A stretch of DNA of 64,000 bases. Source: Primulina eburnea (lineage: Eukaryota > Streptophyta > Magnoliopsida > Lamiales > Gesneriaceae). Shown piece by piece: positions 6,651 through 63,942 of this stretch. The notes under the pieces are model-generated. The model was given only the letters and a program-made list of their open reading frames with translations, ran no database searches and was not told where the DNA came from. Where the stretch lies: positions 15,781,054-15,845,053 of the forward strand of contig NC_133101.1 in assembly GCF_022965805.1 (NCBI RefSeq), given 5' to 3'. Within the stretch, counting starts at the first letter, position 1. Each line of letters starts with the position of its first letter. The position numbers were made by a program, and so were the translations under genes.

Positions 6651-8419
6651 TGTGGGGACCCGGGCTCTAACTCAATTCTTTTTGGGATTTACTGGATCTT
6701 TGCTCGAAAATGTGGGTCAAAAATTAGCTTAAATCATTAAATCAAATGTATAGTCAAAGCATAACATGTCTTTTTAATAATTAAACAACATCAGGTACAT
6801 ACAAGTCTGTTTAGTACAATCATACACTAGTATTCAAATCCTGACTATAAACATAATTAGTACAAGTCTAATAGGAAAACACTAGAAATCTTCAACGCCC
6901 GAGATCTCCACGCTATTGTCAATCTCTCATCTAGCTCGAGACCCAGATCCTGCCCCACCTGTTGCCATACACACATACATACACGACAACAGCCGGATAA
7001 CTCCGGTGAGAACAAATCCCAGTATAAAACATGTATGCATGCAATGTAATAAATCATACACCAATGCATAGCATATATCAATGCACATGAATATATAATC
7101 TACAACATGTAAAGGAATACAAATATGTATTCAACGTCTAGTTTTTGACTCGAATCTCTAATCTAGGGATCCCGGTGTGAATAAGACGGTCTGTCACCTA
7201 CCCAACCACTCGGGGTGACGGTACGTCTTATTCCTAGACTTCGGTCAACTCTGTATCGAGGGTCTACACATAGAGTAAATCTGCTCCTATGCGTCGATAC
7301 ACCGAAACGTCTAGTTTTGGCCGATCTGCCAATATCTCCTATCTCAAGACTCGAATATTAATCAATAAACAAGACATTACATAATCAAATGTAATAACAA
7401 TCTAGTATGTGATTTAGGGAGACTGGTATCAAATCTGAATCGAGTTGTGCAATTCCGTGACCACATGAATTATACCTTTCTTGTCGAATAGTCGGTGTCG
7501 TAGTCGAAGTCTTGAGTTCACAATAACCAATACAAATCTGAAATGGCATAATCAATGTGCACTTCATCAATATACATTTCAAGCAATTCAATATACAAGC
7601 TGAGATCGGTTTCAGTATACTTCGACGGCGTAACGGCGTAATTCTTCGATACCGCTAACTCAATAATATCATACCCAATCACAAGCAACTCATACTATCA
7701 TCAAAACATCAACATATATTCTAAAATCTGTATATTTTCGGTCTATCACATGCTGGAAATTCTCGAACATCTATACGGTATCCGAAATTCAATCCGATTG
7801 CATTTCTACGATACTCAATATACCAAAAACACATATTTCTAACAAAATCATAACTTCTCCAACATATGAATTTCGAAGCATGCTAAAAATGAACAATACT
7901 TACATCCTTAGCTAGTTCTTGTTGCAAGGATCGCAAATCTGTACTCGAAATTAAAATCGGATAGCTATTTGTTGCATAATCTCAATTCTAATATGAAGAA
8001 ACTTTGAAGAAAACAAAGGGAAACTCTCGGTGCTCTCAGCTGCTGGAATGAAGAATGAAGATTCAGCAATTTCATATATATATACATGCCATGTGTCAAG
8101 CCAAGAAACAAAGGTGGCATTTTCGCATGCAGAACCGCGGGTGCGGTAAGTTTCTTAGCGCGGGTGCGCTCATGCTTCGGCAGCCCTTTCATTTTCTGAA
8201 ATTCATCGACCGCGGGTGCGGTCTCTGCAAGACCGCGGGTGCGGTGATGCTACGGCCAAACTTCATAAATCTGAATAATACACCGCGGGTGCGATCTTGT
8301 CTGAGGTGCAGGTGCGGTATGGCTTCGGCCATTCTTTCAAAAATTCTCATTTTTATGTCATGCATTCTCACCTCTTCAAATCTAACATCAATGACCACTG
8401 ATAATTCTCGAGCCTTACA
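6651..8419 (-). repeat. E1 left (3') LTR
   Basis: It begins tgtggggacc on the plus strand and ends cgagccttaca. It matches 13304-15072 with only scattered differences. On the minus strand it holds the dyad array (8134-8319) and then a TATA run (8074-8086). Confidence 0.92.
8074..8319 (-). promoter_or_regulatory. E1 3' LTR promoter: dyad array ACCGC-GGGT-GCGGT plus TATA run
   Basis: Six copies, some degenerate, of the 14-bp dyad ACCGCGGGTGCGGT (arms ACCGC/GCGGT) lie at irregular spacing in 8134-8319. Three are followed by a companion block like ATGCTTCGGCC. About 48 bp downstream on the minus strand is TATATATATATG (8074-8086). Everything around is AT-rich. Function is inferred from position. 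Confidence 0.65.
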
Positions 8420-8521
8420 TTTCTCCCCCTCTTAGACAGGAGTTCGTCCTCGAACTCGTAAGCAGTTAATAATGCAAGTATATACAAAACAGTATAATCA
8501 AAACTGAAAGGAATACTTACA

Positions 8522-62324: not shown

Positions 62325-62342
62325 GGCTCTGATACCACTAAA
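62325..62342 (-). other. E4 primer binding site
   Basis: TGGTATCAGAGCC on the minus strand, separated from the LTR by five bases. Confidence 0.85.
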
Positions 62343-63942
62343 TGTGACACCTTGACCCGATTTAATAAAATAACAGCGGAATTTAAAATTTTCTTTCAAA
62401 TGGAAGGAGGTTTCAAAATACATTTTCATAAAATCATCTACATCAAAAGTAAATACATGATCATTCAAATGATATAACAAAAATACAAAATATCATTCCT
62501 ATGATCATGTCCAAAATGCCAACAAAATCATCTTCCTTCCAACTTGGTATGCATATGACTCCGGTCTCACAATCAATGTCCCGGTCCGCCGCTCTTATCT
62601 ACATCACACGAAATAACTGAAATGAGTATAAAACTCAGCAAGTGGAACTCTTACATAGCAAAGAACATATCATACTCTGTAAAACATAGCTTTGAAATCA
62701 TAAAATACCATCAACTCTGAAACATGAATAACATAGCAATAGCATAACAATGAGATGGTATTTCTCTTTACTCTGGTTGGATTGATATCAATAGTAACTC
62801 TGTCTCTGGTGCTCGTATCCCATTGATATAAATCGACAACTCTGAGGGATATAAGCCTATGGTCGTTGATCAACTAATTGCATGCAATCTCTGACTATGT
62901 ATCTATCAATCCAATAAAACATTTAAACTCTCTCTGAGGCATTAAACCAAACACTTTGAATACTCTTTCTCTTGTATTCCCTTTTTGAACAATTGAGACA
63001 TATAGAAGTCTCTACTATACAACACAATGAATCCATACATACTATGAATCAAATGGAAGGGAATAGCATAATAAAACTCTTGAAATACAATACATATACT
63101 ATCATGTGAGCACAAAGGATGAAATTCCACTTACAACCACTTGGAACCTTGAATCTAAACTCTTGGTACACCACCTACAACAATAATCCATAAATAGCAC
63201 CATTAACAACTCAATAATAAAAAGCCCAAGTCAATTAATCCATAAAACCGACATATTCAACAAACCCATATCATCTCTCCTCCAAAACAAAGAAATAACA
63301 ACACCAAAAGCTTACCTTAGCTTCCTAGAACCAAGAAGAACTTCGATCTCAACTCAATAATCCAACAATAAGCTTAAATCAAAGAAAGGAAAGGAAGAAA
63401 TGAGGAACCCTAGCCTTCCCAAGGAGAGAAATCGAGAAATGAGGGAAAAGAAATGAGTAAAGGTAAACCAACCATCCAATTATATCACTTAAAATCTCGA
63501 AACACGACTTTGCTGTGCGCTACCGCGGGTGCGGTCCCTTGTGCACCGCGGGTGCGCTATGCTCACGGCCTCAAAACAAAAATCTCATGCTCGACGACCG
63601 CGGGTGCGGTGAAATCCTTACCGCGGGTGCGGTGCACTCTACACCGCGGGTGCGGTGTGGCTTCGGCAAAATCACCAAAATTCTGAACATGAGACCGCGG
63701 GTGCGGTGACTACCTGGAGCGCGGGTGCGGTCTGGTCACGACAAAGACAAACTCTTATGCAACTAAAATCGAACCGCAACGCTGATATCATACAACCACA
63801 AACAATGATCATCAATAATACCACAAAACAACAATAACCAACCCTACTATAACCCATAAACACAACTCTTAACATCTAAATCAAATAACCCAATAAACAT
63901 ACGAGACTTAAACCGTACCGTACACAAGGCTCGGCTATTACA
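62343..63942 (-). repeat. E4 right (5') LTR
   Basis: 1,600 bp, TG...CA, followed by the target duplication AAGCA. Confidence 0.95.
63477..63731 (-). promoter_or_regulatory. E4 5' LTR promoter: dyad array ACCGC-GGGT-GCGGT plus TATA-like box
   Basis: Seven dyads in 63522-63731 (five perfect over the ACCGCGGGTGCGGT core, two with end changes). Several are followed by companion blocks of the type 'gctcacggcc' or 'gcttcggca', as in E1. About 37 bp downstream on the minus strand is gtgatataattgg (63477-63489), a TATA-like sequence. Confidence 0.65.

Follow-up and report, generated by a model that had tools for sequence, protein, structure and literature searches.

Retrotransposons with long terminal repeats (LTRs) carry their promoter in the U3 part of the repeat, and the locus described here raises the question of what is done by clusters of short, CpG-rich inverted repeats (dyads) that lie in this part of several elements. 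The stretch analysed, hereafter the window, comprises 64,000 nucleotides of Primulina eburnea contig NC_133101.1 (positions 15,781,054 to 15,845,053, forward strand) and holds five LTR retrotransposons, E1 to E5. In four of the five (E1, E2, E3 and E4) a CpG-rich dyad array is situated directly before a TATA-like box on the transcribed strand, at distances of 49 bp in E1, 36 bp in E4, 13 bp in E2 and 5 bp in E3 (one copy per element, the E3 array being bounded as in a preliminary description of this DNA), and all eight LTR arrays were located where that description had placed them. The arrays are probably multi-site enhancer platforms of the U3 promoter that would be bound by host factors. The binding sites for host factors proposed earlier thus receive indirect support, from the conservation of units between E1 and E4, from the regular spacing of the units, and from an array inside E2 that is homologous to its LTR array and lies before a second TATA-like box. 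The arrays and boxes are as follows (coordinates of the window).

8134 to 8318, minus strand: array of the E1 3' LTR, six ACCGCACCCGCGGT-type units in three pairs (unit starts 8134, 8157 / 8209, 8232 / 8282, 8305)
8074 to 8085, minus strand: TATA-like (TA)n run of the same LTR
14787 to 14971, minus strand: array of the E1 5' LTR, six units
16038 to 16338, plus strand: array of the E2 5' LTR, CGCGC-n4-GCGCG, eight distinct exact dyad centres
16352 to 16358, plus strand: E2 TATA box TATATAA, a good match
22907 to 23140, plus strand: E2 internal array, after pol, its last CG core ending at 23135
23150 to 23159, plus strand: internal TATA-like sequence TTTATAACCC, 16 bp after the E2 internal array
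26597 to 26899, plus strand: array of the E2 3' LTR, seven distinct exact dyad centres, TATA at 26914
50751 to 50982, plus strand: array of the E3 5' LTR, TCGGA-n3-TCCGA, nine units within one arm mismatch, seven of them exact in the arms
50991 to 50998, plus strand: E3 TATA box TATAAATA, a good match
56732 to 56983, plus strand: array of the E3 3' LTR, ten units, TATA at 56992
63522 to 63731, minus strand: array of the E4 5' LTR, seven units
63480 to 63485, minus strand: E4 TATA-like box, within GATATAATTGG

Dyads were counted with exact 5-bp arms and a spacer of 2-6 and compared with 200 dinucleotide shuffles, a variant of the test using 6-bp arms and a spacer of 0-8. When this control was applied to the window, the excess was clear in E1 (7 dyads versus 0.84 expected, 0/200 shuffles as high, and 5 versus 0.91, 1/200, in the other LTR), in E3 (13 versus 2.04 and 14 versus 2.84, 0/200 in each LTR) and in E4 (7 versus 1.23, 0/200, and 6 versus 1.22, 1/200), and weak in E2. 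The arm length of about 5 bp given in the preliminary description is borne out, the excess being present with 5-bp arms and mostly gone with 6-bp arms. E5 is, as had been noticed, an element with a TATA box and no array: the 300 bp before TATA contain 4 dyads versus 2.7 (69/200) and 6 versus 2.6 (18/200), with a CpG observed/expected ratio of about 0.2. By comparison, the eight LTR arrays have ratios of 1.18-1.61 and 9-18 CpG per 100 bp, against 0.91 and 3.3 per 100 bp for the window. Each family's unit, with at most one arm mismatch, is confined to the arrays, bar three stray TCGGA-type sites, and in E1, E3 and E4 no own-family unit was found at this threshold outside the LTR arrays.

For E1 and E4, the earlier statement that motifs differ between families does not hold, as both share the identical 14-mer ACCGCACCCGCGGT, which has 14 exact copies in the window, all within the E1/E4 arrays and all on the minus strand. 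When only the arms were searched for, an ACCC centre in the same orientation was present at 24/24 sites with at most two arm mismatches; among the seven sites with three arm mismatches, two have an ACCT centre and five do not fit. In a BLAST comparison of the E1 and E4 LTRs the top match is the array (E = 7.6e-18), and the first match wholly outside it has E = 0.061. A global alignment places all six E1 units on E4 units with 78/84 bases identical, while the array linkers are at 61/97 (63%), compared with a shuffled background of 64.6% (standard deviation (sd) 1.5, 20 shuffles); identity elsewhere is 65/101 in U3 before the array and 29/48 between array and TATA. A stricter aligner found linker 2 weakly alike (40/500 shuffles) and five other LTR stretches not significantly alike (55 to 221 of 500 shuffles). 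The pol genes are 15-45% identical at four-fold sites (five aligned stretches). Judged from these alignments, the E1 and E4 arrays are homologous, and their units are the parts that have changed least.

The units are arranged in pairs, and this applies to arrays of different sequence. Distances within pairs are 23 bp in E1, 23-24 bp in E4, 19-20 bp in E3 and 20-22 bp in E2, and the pairs recur with periods of 73-75 bp in E1, 75 bp in E4 (98 bp across its triple), 68 bp in E3 and 63-65 bp in E2, where five pairs emerged once the sites of the two LTR copies had been merged manually. The unit spacing is kept between E1 (23/50/23/52/23) and E4 (24/51/23/23/52/23). Autocorrelation of CpG positions gave, among other peaks, ones at 19-24 and 64-74 bp in all six arrays computed (of nine), and the bands 19-24 and 61-76 bp were reached by 0/200 dinucleotide shuffles in 10 of 12 tests, the two others both concerning the short band (1/200 in the E2 internal array, 8/200 in E1). 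The two E3 arrays, with ten and nine units (56752-56804 versus 50771-50803), show that the copy number of an array changes.

For E2, an internal array that is absent from the preliminary description lies between pol and an additional open reading frame (ORF). Its comparison with the E2 LTR array gives a local score of 67, against a mean of 15.7 (sd 2.5, maximum 26) in 200 dinucleotide shuffles, and its CpG period of 64-65 bp is that of the LTR array. GGCCCA at 23140 and AACCCTAA at 23155 stand beside TTTATAACCC, and we take them to be the site II and telo-box elements of plant housekeeping promoters. The reading frame that follows is:

23560 to 24726, plus strand: E2 additional ORF, PF20167 (putative plant transposon protein, E 4.1e-40), between pol and the 3' LTR

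It starts with an ATG at 23560; the best of its three protein matches comes from Primulina tabacum, with 55% identity over 97%, and its only match in the PDB is weak (E 0.074). An env-like nature was considered and rejected: no part of the protein is strongly hydrophobic (highest mean over 19 residues 1.35), and it is therefore termed an additional ORF. Related arrays in the LTR, which drives gag-pol, and before the additional ORF would place both promoters under one control, with transcription presumably starting at the internal promoter as well. Within 22875-23160 the internal array has a (TA)n run to its left and TTTATAACCC to its right and could serve two directions, so that a promoter on the opposite strand may exist here. 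The high rank of 22851 in the dyad scan derives mostly from this (TA)n run. The CGCG cores of E2 resemble the CGCG boxes of CAMTA-type factors; naming such a factor is left as speculation because the E3 units lack CGCG.

The elements were bounded by self-comparison (self-BLAST), LTR ends, the polypurine tract (PPT) and the primer-binding site (PBS), E5 by its 701-bp repeat alone:

6651 to 8419, minus strand: E1 3' LTR, starting with TGTAAGG after the PPT (self-BLAST; PBS TGGTATCAGAGC beyond the 5' LTR)
13304 to 15072, minus strand: E1 5' LTR (self-BLAST, PBS, PPT/LTR start)
15857 to 17288, plus strand: 5' LTR of E2, presumably Athila-type (self-BLAST, PBS)
26417 to 27850, plus strand: E2 3' LTR (self-BLAST, PBS)
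31843 to 32543, minus strand: E5 LTR repeat of 701 bp (partner 37217-37917), TATA present, no array
49504 to 50692, minus strand: E4 3' LTR, second piece (self-BLAST, PBS)
50693 to 52017, plus strand: E3 5' LTR (self-BLAST, PBS)
56674 to 58023, plus strand: E3 3' LTR (self-BLAST, PBS)
58024 to 58447, minus strand: E4 3' LTR, first piece, holding the array 58027-58236 and cut from the second piece by E3
62337 to 63942, minus strand: E4 5' LTR (self-BLAST, PBS, LTR start)

The pol domains of E1, E3, E4 and E5 follow the Ty3 order or are fragments consistent with it: E3 has protease (PR), reverse transcriptase (RT), ribonuclease H (RNH), integrase (INT) and SH3 in a single ORF, and the pieces of E1 and E4 are likewise ordered. 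In E2 a weak PR is followed by RT at 20273, RNH at 20911 and INT at 21675, again the Ty3 order. The Ty1/copia order, with INT before RT, was not encountered in E1 to E4, which removes them from the genus Sirevirus. SH3_Tf2-1 matches were obtained in E1, E3 and E4, and a Chromo match in E4 only (E 3e-4, below its cut-off). With the Ty3 order, an iMet-type PBS (TGGTATCAGAGC) adjoining the LTRs and a chromodomain/SH3-like INT C-terminus, E1, E3 and E4 have the attributes of what we take to be Tekay (Del) chromoviruses, a clade name given on these attributes. E2 combines the Ty3 order and the additional ORF that separates pol from its 3' LTR with the PBS TGGCGCCGTTGCCGGGGA directly after its 5' LTR; we assume this PBS to be of the tRNA-Asp type and E2 to be an Athila element, again on attributes.

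Even though the preliminary description knew of no common plan of this kind, one has been published for Ty1/copia elements. In the available text of Bousios et al. 2010 (PMC2829016), 13 Sireviruses are described with repeated palindromic motifs (RM) in at least eight copies, all but one with a CGG-CCG core; the RM boxes, most of which occupy the LTR's first half, form CpG islands with TATA on average 37 bp later. Extra copies (77/79 of those in linkers) precede ENV in ENV-bearing elements only, for which an internal promoter was suggested, and the motifs were called Sirevirus specific on comparison with other Ty1/copia elements (PMC2829016). The present arrays resemble these in their multi-copy, palindromic, CpG-rich units clustered before TATA (5-49 bp here), and, in the single case of E2, in a second cluster upstream of a third ORF (22907-23140, before the PF20167 ORF). 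The E3 unit, CGG-n5-CCG, bears the Sirevirus signature, CGG-n0-6-CCG matching 8 and 9 times in its arrays, whereas there are no matches in E1/E4, which have CCG-n6-CGG, and 0 and 1 in the E2 LTR arrays and 0 in the internal array, where the core is CGCGC-GCGCG. Unit numbers are 9 and 10 in E3, 8 and 7 in E2, 7 in E4 and 6 in E1, so that E1, E4 and one E2 copy fall just under the Sirevirus minimum. The hosts differ as well, being Ty3/gypsy (RT-RNaseH-INT order), and the available text on Sireviruses (PMC2829016) says nothing of units paired regularly at 19-24 bp. The plan equals the Sirevirus plan except in lineage and, in E1/E4 and E2, in the motif core. No report of it in Ty3/gypsy elements was found in the open-access literature among the matches listed.

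Other comparisons are looser. The clusters with quadruplex-forming potential that Lexa et al. (PMC3902901) describe in plant LTRs are likewise G/C-rich and lie about 250 bp before predicted LTR promoters, but, in the part of that work available, consist of G-runs, not dyads. The gene23 of Grande (Gomez-Orte 2013, as cited in PMC7264820) is likewise an additional ORF placed after pol and before the 3' LTR, and has its own promoter, as may be the case in E2; it is antisense, however, whereas the E2 ORF is sense, and the citing text makes no mention of an array shared between LTR and interior in Grande.

The distribution of the arrays can be set against the phylogeny of pol. A scan of genome contigs gave eight contigs with RT relatives among 28 pattern-matching contigs; L002-L009, filed under Streptomyces, Mycobacterium, Streptosporangiaceae, Verrucomicrobia and a Trichormus metagenome-assembled genome, encode Ty3-type RT and are apparently eukaryotic contamination. 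Twelve elements were sought for the tree, and ten were retained with two pieces of pol (RNaseH-INT and the INT C-terminus), L008 and L009 being dropped for short or missing matches, L007 being represented by one piece and E5 being partial. E1 and E3 are joined at 99% support, and E1+E4 is rejected (difference in log-likelihood 28.8, approximately unbiased test p = 0.0076); the remaining deep nodes are weak (35-60%), including E4+E5 at 39%. Identities agree with E1+E3, at 0.636 for E1-E3 and 0.587 for E1-E4 in the INT C-terminus and 0.340 and 0.279 in gag. The array alignments have the opposite order, about 1 sd above shuffles for E1-E3 and about 12.6 sd for E1-E4: E3, the nearer relative of E1 in pol, bears a different array. 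Either the array passed from one family to another, or it was replaced in E3 and lost in others. An exchange would take fewer events than loss and replacement and appears preferable in what is a small sample with an uncertain deep tree. Plant LTR elements belonging to one family are reported to recombine with each other (PMC5668417, in the portion available).

The enhancer-platform reading can be stated as a sequence of steps. Each array would have arisen by short tandem amplification of a CpG-rich, partly dyad unit of 13-16 bp, and the unit would be recognised by a host nuclear factor with sequence specificity, which would bind it as a dimer or through several fingers. With the units of a pair lying about two helical turns from each other, and the pairs repeated mostly every 63-75 bp beside the TATA box, bound proteins could touch. 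As the lineages have different units, the factors are probably different, or different members of one family. The array module would be separable from the rest of the element, being common to E1 and E4 despite their non-sister pol genes and present twice over in E2. In the Ty1/copia elements Tnt1 and Tto1, tandem, partly symmetric activator boxes in U3 bind host factors, a likeness of arrangement that is not drawn from sequence. More tentatively, and with some doubt on our part, the array and TATA plan may be a promoter module that crosses the copia/gypsy divide, with different sequences and the same two-level spacing, swapped between families and, in E2, copied inside the element for a third gene. 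If this were true genome-wide, a design called Sirevirus specific would be general to plant LTR retrotransposons and would have arisen repeatedly or would travel between families. It would also give a handle on the host factors that retrotransposons court, on co-regulation of third ORFs and on what makes silencing pathways find U3; short conserved units from the E1/E4 pair could be used directly as bait for host DNA-binding proteins.

Several results weigh against the enhancer-platform reading. The dyad excess of the E2 LTR arrays is modest (15 versus 5.5, 5/200, and 15 versus 6.2, 9/200), because GCGCGC composition yields dyads by itself, and that of the E2 internal array is weak (7 versus 2.6, 10/200), so that the case for it is better made by its homology to the LTR array. 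Lengthening the arms to 6 bp weakens the excess, above all in E3 and E2, the shuffles as high per 200 being 7 and 20 in E1, 36 and 26 in E2, 32 and 89 in E3, and 8 and 10 in E4. The units of one array are not independent, as tandem duplication inflates dyad counts within arrays, and the independent cases are thus three lineages (E1/E4, E2, E3) and not eight. Since there are only these three, and since the spacing bands were picked after the peaks were known, the two-level spacing observed across lineages is suggestive only. In the E1/E4 units it is the asymmetric centre that is kept, and dyad symmetry is not the best-conserved property: all five arm pairs are intact in 16/26 units and at least one is broken in 10/26. 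The dimeric nature of the factor proposed earlier is for these reasons uncertain, and the conserved centre implies that a simple symmetric dimer site does not describe the E1/E4 unit. The array is also not the sole related stretch of the E1 and E4 LTRs, as linker 1 (25/36, 0/500 shuffles with the stricter aligner) and the last 150 bp (97/131, 1/500) are alike and the sequence after TATA (733/1080, 68%) is slightly above background. The TATA-like boxes of E1, a (TA)n run, and of E4, GATATAATT, are both weak. Finally, no GC-rich dyad excess was found in Tekay-like, LTR-like stretches of four outside contigs (L002, L003, L005 and L006), which makes the array plan an optional one. L003 has 1 CpG in 1,101 bp and 6 dyads versus 11 expected, and L002 (463 bp) has 2 versus 2.2; the excess in L005 (3305-3560, 11 versus 2.0) and L006 (5950-6117, 9 versus 0.7; 0/200 shuffles each) consists of AT-rich, CpG-poor dyads, with 1 and 0 GC-rich ones, respectively.

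Among other explanations, it is conceivable, if unlikely, that structure comes first, the arrays forming hairpins in U3 RNA at the 3' end of the transcript, or cruciform DNA, and templating silencing small RNAs or aiding the element. RNA folding z-scores of -4.35 for E1, -3.16 for E2 and -2.87 for E4 (one copy each) point this way, as does one E1 unit that is altered symmetrically in both arms. In maize Sireviruses, whose LTR palindromes are clustered in the cis-regulatory region as here and were studied as small-RNA targets, small RNAs are in excess over the palindromes (Bousios et al. 2016, as cited in the available text of PMC10760457). Two of the five arrays folded here, by contrast, do so in no unusual way: for E3 (-1.39) and for the E2 internal array (-1.00), many shuffles fold at least as well (21/200 and 31/200), which weakens a pure hairpin reading. 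One-armed breaks outnumber the sole paired change in the E1/E4 units, the centre that would be unpaired in a hairpin is conserved, and structure has no need of a location beside the TATA box.

Neutral tandem amplification, in which GC-rich palindromes expand by slippage or by template switching during reverse transcription without any function, seems slightly less likely again. Duplication would yield what is seen in the single orientation of the E1/E4 units, in the tandem period of the arrays and in the difference of one unit between the E3 copies, and the modest E2 excess agrees with it. Yet the E1/E4 units are 93% identical although four-fold sites in pol seem close to saturated and the LTR around the units has drifted over most of its length, and neutral drift does not explain why arrays stand before TATA in four elements and once more inside E2; the neutral account is already strained by this conservation and by the pol tree. 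Least likely is a device of CpG density, a methylation-free island or a methyl-CpG patch read by an anti-silencing reader, which would suit the comparable densities of arrays with differing motifs but would need neither the specific 14-mer nor the non-CpG centre nor the fixed spacing that E1 and E4 keep. Of the CpG islands modulating methylation that were envisaged earlier, the simple unmethylated form lacks support: when paired LTRs are compared, CpG transitions affect 11/256 sites in arrays versus 18/386 in the rest (Fisher p = 1.0), a result that argues against arrays staying unmethylated after insertion and is silent on a newly active copy.

CpG-rich dyads are not limited to LTRs in the window, a confinement ruled out by the E2 internal array and by a CpG-rich foldback of 155 bp at 2213-2367, outside E1-E5. 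The latter has 11 dyads versus 1.4 (0/200) and an RNA z-score of -14.15, its dyads recur every 19-22 bp with arms alternating between CCGTGCTT/AAGCACGG and GCTCC/GGAGC, and it is possibly a foldback element or a small-RNA source. It is among eleven regions outside the arrays that reach 14 CpG per 200 bp; the most CpG-rich stretch outside arrays is 4761-5300, with 25 per 200 bp. Three of the eleven regions, which are CpG spots in coding parts of E1 and E3 (9361, 52161 and 54421), gave dyad counts without a clear excess, with 25, 92 and 120 of 200 shuffles as high. In viral contigs there was no match for the E1/E4 unit pair and no RT relative, and the E3 unit pair matched one IMG/VR contig.

E3 is inserted within the E4 3' LTR with a target duplication GCTAC, and the insertion point (50693 / 58023) is the edge of an E4 array unit. 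A weak general insertion preference for palindromes has been reported, which for Tekay is not significant in the table concerned (PMC6911290, in the portion available). The E1 direct repeat runs about 518 bp past the start of the 5' LTR (15073-15590), into the PPT and the 3' end of pol, and E1 thus looks like the remnant of a tandem (pol)-LTR-internal-LTR arrangement. No Rfam families at the gathering score and no tRNA genes were found within the window. An ORF at 45353-46420 is polyamine-transporter-like; the top match among the 120 listed is a Primulina tabacum protein, with 93% identity across 92% of the query. Positions 39221-42451 are occupied by an AT-rich tandem repeat with a unit of about 822-824 bp.

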